NCBI GenBank assembly: GCA_026388655.1
Contig: JAPLJI010000080.1
Location: 1-36,193 of the forward strand
Direction: 5' to 3'
DNA length: 36,193 nt
From: Pseudomonadota bacterium
Lineage (GTDB): Bacteria; Desulfobacterota; JAPLJL01
Position 1 is the stretch's first letter. Each line of letters opens with the position of its first letter. The position numbers and the translations under genes were made by a program. Below are positions 8,596 through 35,862 of the stretch, piece by piece. Under the pieces are notes generated by a model. It did not search any database. It was not told where the DNA came from and saw nothing but the letters and a program-made list of their open reading frames with translations.

Positions 8596-8827
8596 AATGT
8601 CAAAGTTCAAAATCCAAATGACAAAATAATGCCAAAGTTCCAAGTTCAAAGTTCAAATGACCCCCCCAAAAACCCAAAAGCAAAATCAGATTTGTTATTT
8701 TTTTGTTTTTTAAACTTTATTTAAACTTTGGATTTAAGCATTTGAACTTTTATTTTAGGTGTTTATTTGGCATTTGAACTTCTATTTTGGACATTTATTT
8801 GACATTTGAGCTTTGAACTTTGACATT
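8596..8827. repeat. AAAGTTCAAA-type repeat array with long inverted ends
   Basis: The mtnP-gatB gap is made of short A/T-rich words such as CAAAGTTCAAATG and TTTGAACTTT. The first 16 bases (AATGTCAAAGTTCAAA) and the last 16 (8812-8827) are perfect inverse complements, so the whole spacer can fold as one long hairpin immediately before the gatB start. Related arrays occur at 16595-16715, 19741-19800 and 28213-28240. Confidence 0.75.
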
Positions 8828-8834
8828 TAATAAT

Positions 8835-10280: not shown

Positions 10281-10350
10281 CCAATAATCAAATCCCCACT
10301 TTCAAATATTTATTCATAAGCAACTAAATAAGGCCACTGGAAAACTCTTA

Positions 10351-10668
10351 AAATGTCACCCTGAGCCCTTCGCTCTTTGTCATTCCTTCATTTCATTCAG
10401 GACGGCGCCTGAATCATTCACTTTCTGTCATTCTGAACACGTTCACTTCGTTCAGTGTAAACTCCGTGAAGAATCTCAAGGCGCTTATCAGGGTAAACGC
10501 CAGCGAAGGGTCTGATTTTAAAAGTCTTTCAGATGGAAGAGAGATTCTTCGCCTCCCTCCTTCGCCAATCCATCCTTCGCAGAAACACTGCTTCGGAGGA
10601 CAGGGGCTACGGAGGACAAGTCGGCTCAGAATGACAGGAAAGGTATTTTACGATGGTCTCAAAATAAA
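10351..10668. repeat. Dispersed repeat of the GAAGAATCT family (gatB-cpoB gap)
   Basis: The 510-bp gap between gatB and cpoB has no credible gene. Bases 10351-10563 are, with some divergence, the reverse complement of 35664-35850. Shared words include GCTCTTTGTCATTCCTTCAT, GACGGCGCCTGAATC and GAGATTCTTCGCC. The tail, TTTTACGATGGTCTC, recurs at the ends of copies at 27560 and 34395. Downstream at 10680-10780 lie smaller hairpins, CCCGTGGCCTCTGCCGCGGG and a GTAG-type unit on the minus strand, just after cpoB. Confidence 0.75.
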
Positions 10669-10791: not shown

Positions 10792-11697
10792 TCATTTGGT
10801 CTTCTTCAGCTTTTTCAGTTTTTCCTTGGCGGTCTTGGCGGAATCGGACTTGGGGAACTTGGAGACTAAAGTCTCGAAGGCCATCCGGGCTTCCTTCTGC
10901 TGGCCGAGTTCGAGGAAGGAAAGACCCAGTTTCAGATAAGCGATGGGCGCTTTGGCACTTTTCGGGTATTTCTCGATCACCTCGTTGAAACTCAGGAGGG
11001 CCCTTTCGTAATCCTTGAGGTTGAAGTAACACTCCCCGATCCAATAGCGGGCGCTTTCGGAAAACTGGCCGCTGGGATAAAGGCCGAGGAGTTTCTCGAA
11101 CTTGGCCCGGGCCAGGTCGTATTTTTTCCCCTGGTAGTTTGAATAGGCTTCCCGGTAGCCGGCCTCTTCGTTGGCCCATTTCGGGGTCAATTTCTGGGCG
11201 TCCACCTGCCCGCCCGGGGAGATGATCCCTTCCAGCTTGGCCAGGCGGTCGTTTTGTTCCCTGATCCGGTCGGATCGCTCCTTGATTTGGTCGGTCTGCT
11301 CCCTGACCTGGCCCTCCAGGGTTTTCAGCCGGGAAAACAGGTTTTCCCCTTCCTCGAATTTTCCCCCGAGAGAAAGGATAGTCTGCTTGATCTGTTCGAT
11401 CTGATTCAAAAGGTCGGCCTGCTGGCGGGTGAGCCGCTCGAGTTCCTTCTGGTTGGCCTCGCTCTGGGCCTTGAGCCGGGGCAGGTCCTGGTCCATCCGG
11501 TTGACCTTGGACTCGAGGGTGTCCAACCGGGCGGAGATAATCAGCCCATCGTTTTTGGTCATGAGCAAACAGCCGGGAATTAAGCAGAGAACAGAGAGCA
11601 GAGAGCAGAGAGTGAAGATGATAAAAAAACTGGTAGGCGCAGGCTTTAGCCTGCGTTTTTTCGCAGCCTGAAGGCTGCGGCTACCGGGGATTTTCAT
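10792..11697 (-). CDS. cpoB: Tol-Pal associated TPR lipoprotein (CpoB/YbgF-like)
   Basis: The 301-residue protein has a signal region ending in a lipobox-like CLIPGC (Cys43), a coiled coil (about 50-160, heptads such as LDTLESKVNRMDQDL), and C-terminal TPR repeats (about 180-295: YREAYSNYQGKKYDLARAKF and two more). This is the YbgF/CpoB layout, last in a tolQRAB-pal operon; in E. coli CpoB coordinates cell-wall synthesis with outer-membrane constriction. ATG 11697 has TTAGGAAATA upstream, 50 bp after pal. Oddly, residues about 5-22 are encoded by a REP pair and about 27-38 by a 7-bp tandem repeat. These supply the basic n-region and hydrophobic core of the signal peptide. There is no alternative start closer to the lipobox. 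Confidence 0.85.
   Translation of the reverse strand: MKIPGSRSLQAAKKRRLKPAPTSFFIIFTLCSLLSVLCLIPGCLLMTKNDGLIISARLDTLESKVNRMDQDLPRLKAQSEANQKELERLTRQQADLLNQIEQIKQTILSLGGKFEEGENLFSRLKTLEGQVREQTDQIKERSDRIREQNDRLAKLEGIISPGGQVDAQKLTPKWANEEAGYREAYSNYQGKKYDLARAKFEKLLGLYPSGQFSESARYWIGECYFNLKDYERALLSFNEVIEKYPKSAKAPIAYLKLGLSFLELGQQKEARMAFETLVSKFPKSDSAKTAKEKLKKLKKTK
11585..11612. repeat. Heptanucleotide tandem repeat inside the cpoB signal peptide
   Basis: Four copies of a 7-bp unit, CAGAGAA once and CAGAGAG three times on the + strand, lie within the hydrophobic segment of the CpoB signal sequence. Seven is not a multiple of three, so gain or loss of a unit would shift the cpoB frame just after its start. 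Confidence 0.8.
11633..11684. repeat. Head-to-head REP pair inside the 5' end of cpoB
   Basis: GTAG followed by hairpin GCAGGCTTTAGCCTGC, a short T-rich middle, then hairpin GCAGCCTGAAGGCTGC and GGCTAC (CTAC on this strand). The GTAG...CTAC geometry matches the other REP pairs at 7490, 28319 and 34739. It is translated in frame on the minus strand as the start of CpoB. Confidence 0.8.
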
Positions 11698-11747: not shown

Positions 11748-12533
11748 CTACTTCTTTACAATAAACTCCGCCCGGCGGTTTTTGGCCCAGGCGGTATCGT
11801 CGTGTCCGGGATCGACCGGGATCTCTTCACCGTAGCTGATGATGGTCAGCCGGGTGGTGTCGATGCCGAGAGCCACGAGGTAGTCGCGGGCGGTCTTGGC
11901 CCGTTTTTCGCCCAGGGCGAGGTTGTATTCGTTGGCGCCGCGCTCGTCGCAGTGGCCTTCGATCTGGATCACGACGTTGTATTTTTTCAGCCATTCCGCG
12001 TTCTTGGCCAGGATCTGGCGGGCTTCCTCGGAGAGACTGAAATCGTCGAAATTGAAACGGACCGTTTCCAGGGCGGAAATCTTCAGCCCCTCATCCAGGG
12101 AACCGGTTCCGGTCTGCTGTTTCTGGAGATCGGCCACCGAGATTTCCTGGGGTGGAAGCACGGGCCCGGCGGATTTTTCTTCCTCGGTCAGCCCCGGGGT
12201 TTTCGGTGCTGCCGCTTCCTGGGCGGCTTTATTCTGGGCGGCTTCCTCCAGGGCCCGGTCGGCCAGGAGCCGGGCGTTGATGGCGGATTTCTTGGCGGGT
12301 TTGTATTTCTTTTTCTGCATCTCGGTCTTGGCCTGGGTGAGCATCTGCTCGGCGCTCTTGAAGGTTTCGGGAGCATAGGTGGGCGCCTCGGCCGAGCGGG
12401 CCTTTTCCAGGGCCGCTTCGGCGGTGGCGATTTCCTTGATCGGGGGCTTGGCGCAGGCGGAGAGGATAACCAGCGCCGCTACCCCCAGGGTAATCGCAAG
12501 AGATCCAAACATTCTCTTCTGACGAAAACTCAT
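11748..12533 (-). CDS. pal: Peptidoglycan-associated lipoprotein (Pal), OmpA-family
   Basis: The 261-residue protein starts with a clean lipoprotein signal peptide (MSFRQKRMFGSL... LVILSAC, lipobox LSAC). An Ala/Lys-rich helical region follows, resembling a DUF4398-type segment (about 35-115), then the OmpA-like domain with VRFNFDDFSLS, IQIEGHCDERGANEYNLALG and ENRRAEF-like KNRRAEFIVKK. It anchors the outer membrane to peptidoglycan and interacts with TolB. I chose ATG 12533 since AAGGAGGGTGGG precedes it and gives an ideal signal peptide. An upstream in-frame ATG at 12578 also has a GAGGA site and would add 15 residues. The N-terminal helical insert makes it longer than E. coli Pal. Confidence 0.93.
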   Translation of the reverse strand: MSFRQKRMFGSLAITLGVAALVILSACAKPPIKEIATAEAALEKARSAEAPTYAPETFKSAEQMLTQAKTEMQKKKYKPAKKSAINARLLADRALEEAAQNKAAQEAAAPKTPGLTEEEKSAGPVLPPQEISVADLQKQQTGTGSLDEGLKISALETVRFNFDDFSLSEEARQILAKNAEWLKKYNVVIQIEGHCDERGANEYNLALGEKRAKTARDYLVALGIDTTRLTIISYGEEIPVDPGHDDTAWAKNRRAEFIVKK

Positions 12534-12632
12534 CCCACCCTCCTTTTTGACGTTCCCCATCTGGTTTCTATCATTCATTTCGTCCTCTCTTTTTTATCTT
12601 ACCATATATTGACAGTTATTTTCCGGCCCGGT

Positions 12633-13982
12633 TCAAGGAGAAACCGGGGACCAGGCCGGGGCGGTTTCATTCGATCCTTTCCGGCTGATCAGGGGCCGGG
12701 GGGAACTGCCGTCGAAATTCACCACCCAGATGTCATAGTCGCCGGTGCGATTTGCGGCAAAGGCGATCAGGCGTCCGTCCGGGGACCAGGCCGGGTCTTC
12801 GCTGCTGCCCGCGTCTCCCACCAGGAGGGTGTCTTCCGTGCCGTCGGGTTTGATGGCGTAGAGCGAGAAACGGTTATTTTCCTGGCGGGTGTAGGCGATC
12901 CGGTCGCCCCGGGGGGACCAGGCGGGGGAGCAGTTGTAGGAGCCCTGGAAGGTCAGCCGGGTGGCGTTCTTCCCGTCGGAATCCATGATATAAATCTGGG
13001 GCGAGCCCGCCCGCGAGCTGGTGAAGGCGAGCTTTTTCCCGTCGGGGGAATAGGAGGGCTGCACGTCGATCACCTGGTTATTGGTCAGGCGGGTCAATTC
13101 CTGGCCGGAAAGGTTCATCACGTAGATTTCCGCGTCGTTGTCCCGGGAAAGGGTGAGGACGAGTTCTTTTCCGGAGGGGGAAAACACCGGGCCCAGGTTC
13201 AAGCCCGGGAAGTGGGCGATGCTTTCCGATTTGCCGGCGCGCAAATCGTAGCGGTACAGGTCCGGATTGCCCTTGAGGTAGGAGGTGTAGAGGATCTGGG
13301 ATCCGTCCGGGGACCAGGTCGGGCTTAAGTTGAGCCGGCGGTTCGAGGTGATCTGCAGCTCACGGGATTGCTCGAGATCGGAGATGAAGATTTCCTTCCG
13401 CCCGCCGCGGTTGGATTCGTAGGCGATCCGGCTGCCGAAGATACCCGGGGTCCCGGTGAAGGCCCGCACCACCTCGTTGGCGAGCTGGTGGGTGAGGGCC
13501 GCGCAACTGTCTGGAGCCCCGGTAAACACCTTCCCGGAGAGGGAAAGGCCCTGAACCGTGTCGTAGATCTCGGCGGTGAGGGAAAGCTTCTGGTCTTGCT
13601 GGGCATATTTAATCCGGATCAGGCCCTCCGCCCCGATCGTGCGCCAGGAGGCGAAATCCTCGGCGCCCGCGGGAAGTCCCGGTTTAAGGTAGGATTCGGG
13701 CGGAAGGATCTTGAAGAGGCCGGAAAGTTCGAGATCGAATTTCAGGGTGGAGGCGATCTTCCCGGCCAGGGCTGCGGGGGCATCGGAGGTCGAAGCCGGC
13801 GCGGGAATGGCGATCGGGAACTTTTTGGTGCCGGGGGTTCCGATGTCGATGTAGACCTTTTCCGCCACGGGGGCCAGGACCAGGGGCCCGAGGACAAACA
13901 GGGCGGCCAAAAGGAATAACCCGGGAAGTTTCCGGAGATTCCATTTGGGGTTAGTCTTCTGCGAATTGGACCGGTTTTTCAT
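12633..13982 (-). CDS. tolB: TolB, periplasmic beta-propeller protein of the Tol-Pal system
   Basis: The 449-residue protein has a signal peptide (LPGLFLLAALFVLGPLVLAP), a TolB N-terminal domain (about 45-190, including FDLELSGLFKILPPESY), and a propeller of WSPDG-type repeats: LSPTWSPDGSQILYTS, PVFSPSGKELVLTLS, QPSYSPDGKKLAFTS, SPAWSPRGDRIAYTR, DPAWSPDGRLIAFAA. That is the standard TolB layout and length. It links TolA and Pal in the periplasm. AAAGGAGGAGAGA precedes ATG 13982, a very strong ribosome-binding site. It lies between the TolA-like gene (17 bp upstream) and pal. Confidence 0.95.
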   Translation of the reverse strand: MKNRSNSQKTNPKWNLRKLPGLFLLAALFVLGPLVLAPVAEKVYIDIGTPGTKKFPIAIPAPASTSDAPAALAGKIASTLKFDLELSGLFKILPPESYLKPGLPAGAEDFASWRTIGAEGLIRIKYAQQDQKLSLTAEIYDTVQGLSLSGKVFTGAPDSCAALTHQLANEVVRAFTGTPGIFGSRIAYESNRGGRKEIFISDLEQSRELQITSNRRLNLSPTWSPDGSQILYTSYLKGNPDLYRYDLRAGKSESIAHFPGLNLGPVFSPSGKELVLTLSRDNDAEIYVMNLSGQELTRLTNNQVIDVQPSYSPDGKKLAFTSSRAGSPQIYIMDSDGKNATRLTFQGSYNCSPAWSPRGDRIAYTRQENNRFSLYAIKPDGTEDTLLVGDAGSSEDPAWSPDGRLIAFAANRTGDYDIWVVNFDGSSPRPLISRKGSNETAPAWSPVSP

Positions 13983-16578: not shown

Positions 16579-16594
16579 CGTTCATTCCGACCAA

Positions 16595-16715
16595 TGCCAA
16601 ATGCCAAAATCCAAATGTCAAAAAAAGTTAAAATTCAAAGCTCAAAACTTCCATCTTGTAAATGGTTTTTTCCAAGCAGCTTATTTCAATTTTGGAATTT
16701 GAGCTTTGACATTAG
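16595..16715. repeat. CAAATGCCAAA-type inverted repeat array
   Basis: Short A-rich words (CCAAATGCCAAAATCCAAATG, split by small changes; ATTCAAAGCTCAAAA) are answered by their complement (TTTGGAATTTGAGCTTTGAC) on the far side of a short loop. It belongs to the same family as 8596-8827. Confidence 0.65.
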
Positions 16716-19472: not shown

Positions 19473-19804
19473 CATTCGCCCGGGATCCGAAGGTTATCTA
19501 GTTTCTTCAACTCTTAATCTCAACGCGACGAATTACGTTCATCGATGGCGCTGCTTCCGCCTTTGGCGGAATCCCGCCAGGGGCGGTGATCGTTTCGTCT
19601 TCCGGGCAACGTCCTGCGGATTTTTAAGCCGATAACCGTATGACCCAACCGATACGAGCCGCGTAACCGCAACCGGTAAGCCTAATCCCGGAAAATCATA
19701 AAGAAACCTGCCCGGAAGGCTCTCCGGGCCGTCCCGACTTTATGCTTACTTGGGATTTTGGATTTGGAGATTAATTGGGATTTGGGATTTTGAGCTTGGG
19801 ATTT
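19473..19804. other. Unexplained 330-bp spacer between convergent nrdJ and aminotransferase genes
   Basis: No gene is visible. Two adjacent hairpins, CCGCCTTTGGCGG and CCGCCAGGGGCGG, lie near 19559-19588. A further hairpin, CCCGGAAGGCTCTCCGGG, is near 19709-19726, without a T run. Between them is a CCGATA/AACCG-rich stretch (about 19630-19700) with no match to an RNA family I know. The last 60 bp is a TTGGGATTTTGGATTT-type repeat array related to 8596-8827. Confidence 0.5.
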
Positions 19805-20938
19805 TTATTTCCGGGTGGTCAGCTTTTCCAGGGTCTCAAAGAACTGCTGGATCTCGGCCTGGGAATTGTAGAAGTGCGGGGACAGCCGCAAGGCATTGCC
19901 CCGGACTGCGGTCACGATCTTTTCGGTTAAAAGCTTGCGGTGGACGAACTTGGGATCCGGCACCTTGAGGCTCACGATCCCGGAGCGTTCCCCTTTACCC
20001 CAGGGGGAGAGCACCGGGATCTCGCGTTCCGTGGCTTCCTGGTAGATATAGTTGGTCAGGGTGAGGATCCGCTCGTAAATCGCCTCGATTCCGATTTCAA
20101 TCAGCAGGTCGAGGGCGGACCCGAGGGCGAAGATCCCGATTATGTTCAGACTCCCGCCCTCGAAGCGGGCGGCGTCGGAGCGGAGGGTGAAATCAATCCG
20201 GTCGAACTCCCGGGGCTTGACCACGCTTTTCCAGCCGACCGAGACCGGCTTGAGCAGTTCGAGATTTTCCCGGCGGCAGTAAAAAATCGCCACCCCCTCC
20301 GGGGCCAGCATCCACTTGTGGCCGTCGGCGGCGAGAAAGTCGATTTTTTCGTCGCGGACATCCAGGGGGATCGCCCCCACGCTCTGGATCCCGTCCACGC
20401 AGAAGAGAATGCCCCGTTCCCGGCAGATCTTCCCGATCTTTTCCAGGTTGGCCCGGAAGCCGTTCTGGTACTGGACCGAGGAAAGGGCGACTAGGCGGGT
20501 GCGGGGATCGAGCTGGGATTCGATCATCTCCGGGGTGATCCGGCCGTCCGAGGCGGAGATGATTTTCAACTCCACGCCGATTTCCTTCAGGTTCATCCAG
20601 GGGTAAACATTGGAGGGAAACTCCAGGTCGTTGATGATGACCTTGTCTTCCGGGAACCAGTTGAGGCCCGCGGCCACCCAGGAAAGGGCCTCGGAGGTAT
20701 TCTTGGCGAAAGCGATTTCATCCGGGTGGGCCCCGATCAGGCAGGCGGCCTGATCGCGGACCCTTTCCACCTCCTGGTCAAACTCCTGGGTGAAGATGCC
20801 CCCGCCCTCGCAGGCCCGCTGGAGGAATCCTTCCACCGCTCCCACCACCCGGGTGGAGAGGGGAGCCACCCCGGCGTGGTCGAGGTAAATCAGCTCGTCA
20901 ACGACGGGGAAATATTTCCGGACTTCTTCGATGTTCAT
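19805..20938 (-). CDS. Class V aminotransferase / cysteine-desulfurase-like PLP enzyme
   Basis: The 377-residue fold-type I PLP enzyme starts YLDHAGVAPLSTRVV, then AFAKNTSEALSWVAAGLNW (cofactor-phosphate loop). ALSSVQYQNGFRANLEKIG, CVDGIQSVGAIPLDV (the aspartate pairing with the PLP ring) and AADGHKWMLAPEGVA, with the Schiff-base lysine, follow. It is of the SufS/isopenicillin-N-epimerase-like group. I see no clear catalytic-loop cysteine near the C-terminus as in desulfurases, so a transaminase, lyase or epimerase role is possible; the substrate is unknown. Its ATG (20938) lies 41 bp inside the 3' end of the preceding barrel-protein gene, so translation is probably coupled, though a functional link is not obvious. 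Confidence 0.85.
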   Translation of the reverse strand: MNIEEVRKYFPVVDELIYLDHAGVAPLSTRVVGAVEGFLQRACEGGGIFTQEFDQEVERVRDQAACLIGAHPDEIAFAKNTSEALSWVAAGLNWFPEDKVIINDLEFPSNVYPWMNLKEIGVELKIISASDGRITPEMIESQLDPRTRLVALSSVQYQNGFRANLEKIGKICRERGILFCVDGIQSVGAIPLDVRDEKIDFLAADGHKWMLAPEGVAIFYCRRENLELLKPVSVGWKSVVKPREFDRIDFTLRSDAARFEGGSLNIIGIFALGSALDLLIEIGIEAIYERILTLTNYIYQEATEREIPVLSPWGKGERSGIVSLKVPDPKFVHRKLLTEKIVTAVRGNALRLSPHFYNSQAEIQQFFETLEKLTTRK

Positions 20939-27211: not shown

Positions 27212-27585
27212 GGAAAGCTATTAAGCGATAAAAACTCAACTCGTTGAATTATTATTGAACTTGTAATTCCCCTTGGTTTTGCCACGGGGTTACCTTATTT
27301 CGTCATTCCGCATCCCCAATCAAGTTGAGGACATGCTTGATGCGGCCTGCTCGAGCTGACGCTCGTGTCGGCTAGGGAATCCAGAATTTATTGAATGACG
27401 ACATCTGGATTCCCGTTCCCCGCTTAAGACCTGCGAGGACAAGTTTCACGGGAATGACGATGCGGATTCCTCCCGCCGCTGGGGGGGTGAAGAATCTTTC
27501 TTCCGATGAGGAAGTCAGAAGAACCAGATCCTTCGCTGGTGCTCAGGATGACATTATGAGCGTTTTACAATGGTTTCCGTAAAAG
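27212..27585. repeat. GTCATTCC and GAAGAATCT repeats filling the gap before lptC
   Basis: A GTCATTCC...GGAATGAC element spans 27302-27458, relative of the one inside the surface-protein gene. A GAAGAATCT-family copy spans about 27489-27575, containing GAAGAACCAGATCCTTCGC, CTCAGGATGACATT and the TTTTACAATGGTTTC tail. No gene is visible. Confidence 0.7.
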
Positions 27586-28212: not shown

Positions 28213-28471
28213 TTATATTGTAAATTCTAAATTCAAAATTCCAAACAATCTTAAAAAACCATGATTTTAGAAACCGTTATAAACCCGAAAAATGCTGTTG
28301 GTATTCCCAAACAATCCTGTAGTTGCCCGATTTATCGGGCGCTTTTTTAAAAACCGCCGATGAATCGGCCTACTACATAAAGTTCAGATCGTAAAAGACG
28401 ATGAGGAAGAGAGATTCTTCTCCCCCGCCATAGGCGGGGGAGAAGAATGACAAAGTAAGTGTTATTTTAAG
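28213..28471. repeat. REP pair with conserved flank and GAAGAATCT copy between kdsC and lptC
   Basis: From 28213 a short AAATTCAAAATTCC array is followed (28271-28318) by ACCCGAAAAATGCTGTTGG, the same flank as at 7611-7651 in reverse. Then comes a REP pair GTAG (28319) ... CTAC (28373) with hairpins TTGCCCGATTTATCGGGC and GCCGATGAATCGGC. A GAAGAATCT-family piece with CCCCCGCC/GGCGGGGG arms (about 28385-28465) ends the gap. It splits the kds/lpt operon. Confidence 0.75.
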
Positions 28472-31648: not shown

Positions 31649-31691
31649 TTGGGTCTGCTTATTATAAAGACTCTTTTATATTATTATAAAC

Positions 31692-31739
31692 TAAAAGTTA
31701 AGAATCCTAAGAGTTAAGAAGGCTAAGAGTTAAGAAAGA
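31692..31739. repeat. 16-bp tandem repeat in the kdsB-mutS2 divergent spacer
   Basis: Three consecutive 16-bp units share TAAGAGTTAAGAA (the first reads TAAAAGTTAAGAA). They lie between the divergent starts of kdsB and mutS2, so copy number could affect either promoter. A TTAGGCTTATGAACTTATAG repeat-like stretch follows to about 31800. Confidence 0.75.
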
Positions 31740-34224: not shown

Positions 34225-34412
34225 GTCAGGAGTCGGGAGTAAGGAGTTAGGTGTAATGCCTCAATCAAATGACATATTTTCTTTTTGTCATTCTGAGTCC
34301 CCATCTATGGCAGGGGCGAAGAATCTCTCTTCCGTCGGAGAAATCCGAAAAACCAGATCCTTCGCTTGAGCTCAGGATGACATATCGAGGGTTTTGCAAC
34401 GGTCTCTTCAAT
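34225..34412. repeat. GAAGAATCT-family dispersed repeat after mutS2
   Basis: About 34287-34407 starts GTCATTCTGAG, contains GGCGAAGAATCTCTCTTCCG, AACCAGATCCTTCGCTTGAG and GGATGACAT, and ends TTTTGCAACGGTCTC. It aligns well by eye with 27489-27575 and in part with 35672-35730. No gene is visible. Confidence 0.75.
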
Positions 34413-35628: not shown

Positions 35629-35862
35629 TAAACCCGAAAAATACAGTTAGTATTTTCGAATATTATATGGTGGGGGCGAAGAATCTCGTTTCTATCGGAA
35701 AACTCATAAAAATCAGATCCTTCGCGAAGTTTATCCTGAGCGCCTTGAGATTCTTCACTTCGTTCAGAATGACAGGAAGTGAAGGATTCAGGCGCCGTCC
35801 CGAATGAAATGAAGGAATGACAAAGAGCGAAGGACTCAGGATGACATTTTTAGTGGTTTGAC
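35629..35862. repeat. Dispersed repeat, inverted copy of the gatB-cpoB gap element
   Basis: At 35629-35655 the flank ACCCGAAAAATAC...GTTAGTATT resembles the flank at 28271. From 35664 to 35850 the sequence is the diverged reverse complement of 10351-10563, including GGATTCAGGCGCCGTCCCGA and ATGAAGGAATGACAAAGAGC. The minus-strand 90-codon frame across it is a shadow of the repeat. Confidence 0.75.

Follow-up and report, generated by a model that had tools for sequence, protein, structure and literature searches.

The tol-pal lipoprotein gene cpoB carries a head-to-head pair of GTAG REP sequences inside its signal peptide, in the 36,193-nt stretch of DNA analysed here (the window). The pair was probably inserted in frame into a signal peptide that already existed, lengthening its n-region by 18 residues, a reading to which we assign a probability of roughly 0.85. 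The event is of a known kind and its location is instructive; it is neither a demonstrated switch nor the origin of the export signal. The case is well resolved: the REP pair is almost certainly translated, a housekeeping envelope protein apparently tolerates it, and the sister species has kept the empty site. Additionally, it points to where coding sequence accepts REP-type elements, namely in a region constrained by composition rather than sequence.

The two characteristics of CpoB/YbgF, a TIGR02795 domain and a tol-pal context, are both present. The ORF matches TIGR02795 (tol_pal_ybgF, NCBIfam) at 108.7 bits against a cut-off of 90.1, with further domain matches to TPR_6 and YfiO, and pal and tolB are adjacent (Table 1). 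The nearest relative with a cpoB orthologue is the same-genus MAG STA_72 (genome G002, locus L061), in which the pal-cpoB gene order is the same and CpoB is 89% identical. Comparison of the two orthologues gave a dN of 0.074 and a dS of 0.624 (0.063 and 0.558 for the mature part), and CpoB is under purifying selection. The Pal protein of this congener (L061 4700-4820) has a C-terminal KQPETGI-like repeat extension that the window's Pal lacks.

Table 1. Features of the cpoB region, in positions of the window.
Feature	Position	Strand	Remarks
cpoB/ybgF	10792..11697	(-)	301 aa; tol-pal system lipoprotein, coiled coil and TPR
pal	11748..12578	(-)	upstream gene, same cluster; NCBIfam TIGR02802 Pal_lipo, 127.9 bits, cut-off 125.35
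tolB	12633..13982	(-)	NCBIfam TIGR02800 propeller_TolB, 391 bits, cut-off 343
ATG start codon	11695..11697	(-)	SD AGGA upstream, 4-nt spacer
In-frame insertion, 54 bp (18 codons)	11632..11685	(-)	REP pair and one base on each side
REP arm GTAGGCGCAGGCTTTAGCCTGCG	11633..11655	(+)	exact copy at 4 other places
REP arm GTAGCCGCAGCCTTCAGGCTGCG	11662..11684	(-)	inverted relative to the first arm; same family
Heptanucleotide tract (CTCTCTG)3+TTCTCTG	11585..11612	(-)	encodes LCSLLSVLC of the h-region; about residues 29-38
Lipobox I-P-G-C43	11569..11580	(-)	from translation; congener has F-P-G-C at the aligned position

The predicted N terminus of CpoB, translated as MKIPGSRSLQAAKKRRLKPAPTSFFIIFTLCSLLSVLCLIPGC, combines a basic n-region, a hydrophobic core and a lipobox Cys. 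These features of a lipoprotein signal peptide (Sec/SPase II) are evident from the sequence and the congener alignment, and the Pro at lipobox position -2 is atypical. Tat export was rejected on visual inspection, as no RRxFLK motif surrounds KKRRLK. The preliminary description had held that the start ATG is the only one with a ribosome-binding site; its short SD is present, and no other ATG, GTG or TTG of the ORF precedes Cys43. This ATG aligns with the ATG-AAR-ATY start of the congener, whose SD, AGGGG, shows equal 4-nt spacing. The next in-frame start candidates are ATC26, ATC27, CTG33, ATT40, TTG44 and ATG46, of which TTG44 and ATG46 follow the lipobox and are not shared by the congener.

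Read on the + strand, the REP pair is GTAGGCGCAGGCTTTAGCCTGCG-TTTTTT-CGCAGCCTGAAGGCTGCGGCTAC (11633-11684), and it encodes CpoB residues 5-22 (GSRSLQAAKKRRLKPAPT); sequence and translation agree with the earlier placement of the pair at about these residues. Both arms are palindromic and begin with GTAG, and 6 nt separate them. The TAG in these ends is not a stop, because the cpoB frame reads GGT AGC ... CCT ACC. Genome counts support the earlier view that this is a mobile-type repeat inside a signal peptide: allowing up to 3 mismatches, the 3.56-Mb genome (G000) contains 97 matches to the 23-nt arm, of which five, the window's among them, are exact, and none to the reversed control. A similar pattern gave 35 matches in the same-genus genome G001 and 75 in G002 (controls 0), and a looser one marked 119 distinct sites in the fetched loci. 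Among these loci, head-to-head is the commonest layout (16 of 21 close REP pairs), with spacers of 6-9 nt in 10 cases. G000 also holds seven Y1_Tnp genes over the cut-off, one of which (L124) has a REP-like palindrome in its locus. The attributes of GTAG REPs and REPINs are therefore present, namely the GTAG palindrome, high dispersed copy number, an inverted pair with a short spacer and a RAYT in the genome. The extragenic location that is typical of these elements, though not defining, is absent here, since the pair lies within the gene, between start and lipobox.

Where ORFs in the fetched loci span other REPs, a Pfam scan revealed no Pfam-domain ORF with a REP between a clear start and the protein body. 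It gave flanking cases only: in a thymidylate kinase and a TAtT protein the REP precedes the likely start, and the rest comprise a DUF1232 tail and a joined ORF. In the DUF1232 protein (L006 636-1067; G000:C147), a REP pair encodes the C-terminal tail. At L199 403-3000 (G000:C56), a single stop-free open frame of 866 codons joins an M28 peptidase, whose C-terminal tail is hydrophobic, to a TPR lipoprotein-like sequence, with a REP between the two; this could be a gene fusion or the result of a lost stop.

The congener provides the empty site. Its CpoB signal peptide, MKISFRFLLFTLCSLLPALCLFPGC, is complete without a REP, and a REP pattern search of G002 found no match near its cpoB. The element therefore appears to have been added to an existing signal, and the earlier proposal that a REP was co-opted to make the export signal is not supported. 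Excising 54 bp (GGTAG...CTACC), with ends uncertain by a few bases, from the window yields MKIPSFFIIFTLCSLLSVLCLIPGC and an ungapped alignment with L061 in which 97 of 132 nt are identical. The insertion is the likely derived state, because in most other orthologues with a recognised lipobox a possible start precedes the Cys by 15-25 residues, compared with 43 in the window; this polarity rests on one congener and distant outgroups. Neither cpoB nor pal had an orthologue in searches of G001, the third congener. Because the source is a draft MAG of 194 contigs and the REP is high-copy, assembly could have pulled the element in from another locus. Such an artefact is scarcely credible, however, as the two flanks are parts of a single gene in synteny with L061, no gap is needed to align the excised sequence, and the identical arm pair was not seen elsewhere among the fetched loci.

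Translation of the REP is nearly unavoidable on the sequence, because no ATG, GTG or TTG lies between it and Cys43 and the congener has an empty site; only a rare non-canonical start at ATC26 or ATC27 would spare it. That exception defines a rival explanation, in which the REP is 5' untranslated, translation begins downstream of it and the hairpins act in the mRNA. A survey of REPs inside ORFs of several species (PMC3733652, BMC Genomics 2013) lends it some weight by arguing that most of those at annotated N termini are extragenic, with translation starting downstream, and the window's pair is predicted to fold into two stable hairpins (-26.8 kcal/mol). Yet initiation at ATC26 or ATC27 would lack both an SD and a basic n-region, whereas the ATG ahead of the REP aligns with the congener start behind an equally spaced SD, which makes an untranslated REP very unlikely. 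The cpoB element resembles the intragenic GTAG REPs of PMC3733652 in its head-to-head pairing, its RAYT-encoding genome, its location in an ORF and the roughly 20 residues it encodes. Unlike them, it lies in a signal peptide, has an empty-site congener and leaves no other ATG, GTG or TTG available.

The best explanation is that a CpoB lipoprotein signal peptide was already in place and that the REP pair, as a REPIN-like unit, entered it between codons 4 and 5. One of the REP-associated tyrosine transposases (RAYT) of the genome presumably mobilised the pair. The net insertion of 54 bp would keep the frame and add GSRSLQAAKKRRLKPAPT, lengthening the n-region and charging it further. Export and lipidation of CpoB should continue, because the n-region tolerates changes in length and composition. 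The insertion would then be neutral, apparently tolerated rather than of evident use. The several basic residues added to the n-region and the two mRNA hairpins close to the start could instead mean that the REP tunes CpoB export or translation. Such an adaptive role is unlikely, given that the REP leaves the predicted accessibility of the start region unchanged (0.43 with it, 0.45 without it) and that the insertion occurs in one species only.

Related elements show how far this case follows known patterns. REPINs share the arrangement of two inverted REPs as a hairpin unit in a genome with RAYT genes, but they are overwhelmingly extragenic: in SBW25, about 1,050 copies occupy extragenic space and 14 16-mers overlap genes (PMC3116915). 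Rickettsia palindromic elements (RPE), as cited in PMC3733652, likewise are small palindromic elements lying in frame in protein-coding genes, and some decorate the N termini of expressed proteins. They differ in sequence (CGTC type or RPE-1) and host, and do not belong to the REP family found in cpoB.

Downstream of the REP, the hydrophobic core is encoded by a second repeat. As the preliminary description had noted, a simple repeat encodes most of this core, just before the lipobox Cys43; it covers about residues 29-38. The tract comprises four 7-bp units with one mismatch (CAGAGAA, then CAGAGAG three times, in + strand phase), and TRF reports it at 11583-11612 with a period of 7, 4.3 copies and 91% matches. 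None of 20,000 synonymous recodings of its peptide reached its 7-nt periodicity. The congener cpoB carries a diverged homologue with an equal unit count, for which the same recoding test gave P of about 0.01. Being present in the congener, the tract is older than the REP insertion; the hydrophobic core goes back to a degenerate member of a dispersed heptanucleotide family. Because 7 is not a multiple of 3, successive units of such a repeat fall in each of the three frames in turn, so that every frame reads as the same heptapeptide, and this arithmetic accounts for the tolerance; for CTCTCTG the peptide is the hydrophobic (LCSLLSA)n.

A tract of this kind could also act as a phase-variation switch, with slippage shifting the frame and turning CpoB on and off, as had been proposed earlier. 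Three perfect units and one near-perfect unit are present, a 7-bp change would shift the frame, and papers on other bacteria tie heptanucleotide repeats to phase variation. The comparative evidence nevertheless points the other way. The congener cpoB has the same number of units, now diverged, and an NlpD-like gene retains four diverged units in three species; maintenance by slippage is unsupported, because equal counts with diverged units are the opposite of what it predicts. Copy-number variation among species, the mark of a phase-variable locus, was absent from the one cpoB orthologue and from the nlpD-like genes of three species. Moreover, the tract has only four units, its family is genome-wide and mostly intergenic, and CpoB is a housekeeping envelope protein rather than a surface antigen. 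Phase variation is accordingly highly improbable, and this earlier claim is not sustained. The preliminary description had named an orthologue with the same signal and unit count, and repeats without homologues elsewhere in the genome, as observations that would count against it. The orthologue does share the core and unit count, but both repeats have many homologues elsewhere.

Genome-wide searches place the cpoB tract in a large family. A degenerate three-unit heptad pattern gave 220 matches in G000 against 6 for reversed controls, and a stricter search found the family in G001 and G002 too. Across 741 kb of G000, divided into coding and non-coding DNA by a simple purpose-made gene caller, 111 strong lag-7 stretches fell in 189 kb of non-coding DNA, compared with 0-18 at lags unrelated to 7, and 8 fell in 500 kb of coding DNA. 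Coding members such as the cpoB tract are therefore rare in this heptad family, which lies mostly between genes. Autocorrelation on the window alone showed no heptad excess, the sample being too small. Dispersed 7-bp direct repeats are also known from Beggiatoaceae, in which TAACTGA repeats are intergenic, many lie near start codons, and the reverse strand can be open and encode short peptides (PMC4679880). The unit differs, however, and the cpoB-type tract encodes hydrophobic signal-peptide cores rather than occupying a ribosome-binding-site location.

Several other exported proteins of the genus have repeat-encoded N termini. A LysM/M23 lipoprotein resembling NlpD (by Pfam) has a heptad-encoded core, KKYFTLCSLLPALCLFLLAC in G000 and KYFTLCSLLSALCLFLIAC in G002, with a diverged form bearing a long N-terminal extension in G001. 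Inspection of the DNA by eye found four diverged units in the core in each of the three species, and a G002 paralogue of 71% identity lacks the tract. The n-region of the G000 protein (VQSSKFRVQGSRFTVQNLKK) is also encoded by a 7-bp repeat, of GTTCAAG-like type. The NlpD-like gene (L136 831-1610, G000:C12; L335; L285) adjoins a surE-like gene, and its signal peptide draws on two heptad families; the n-region varies in length between species as the core stays at four units. The predicted signal core of a lipocalin-like exported protein is encoded by CTCYNTG units in G002 (L357 1080-1150) and ACCTTTM units at the same place in G000 (L382). Similarly, the N terminus of an outer-membrane-like protein consists of REP and heptad sequence in G002 (L354) and of two heptad families in G000 (L383), although the start sites of the lipocalin-like and outer-membrane-like proteins are uncertain. 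The G002 form of the latter (L354 1097-1210, G002:C3) has TSP3-type repeats, and its N terminus passes first through REP sequence and then through the heptad tract.

These cases hint that the genus repeatedly draws on dispersed repeats as material for export signals, with orthologues swapping repeats at the same place, a tentative proposal whose chances we put a little below even. In any phase, (CTCTCTG)n would encode a hydrophobic core; basic n-regions would come from (GTTCAAG)n, again in any phase, and from REPs. The wider pattern suggests a simple route from non-coding 7-bp repeats to signal peptides. The NlpD-like, lipocalin-like and outer-membrane-like cases were found through the heptad search and give no estimate of frequency. 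An unbiased survey of the 741 kb found a strong 7-nt period in 2 of 25 lipoprotein-like signals, the window's included, so that heptad tracts were rejected as a general property of signal peptides and belong to a minority. Literature searches for signal peptides encoded by heptanucleotide repeats returned no relevant paper, which does not establish novelty.

Further repeats were observed in and around the loci studied. A GTCTCTG run lies directly 5' of the probable trpC start (named by eye) at L143 about 1472-1521 (G000:C2), and a GGACTTC-type heptad encodes the N-terminal extension of a probable iron-sulfur protein on G000:C176, whose N terminus is MTTDSKTSDLGLRTSDLKVDYSACVRCG. The window itself contains additional arrays with a 7-bp period at 8596-8829, 16593-16646, 19746-19807, 28215-28248, 31691-31736 and 34225-34256, with units that include CAAAGTT, ATTTGAC, AATGCCA, TTGGGAT, ATTCTAA, TAAGAGT and GTCAGGA. 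Another dispersed repeat family has copies near 27477, 34306 and 35666, and a 98-nt inverted pair, 92% complementary, occupies 10341-10438 and 35762-35859.
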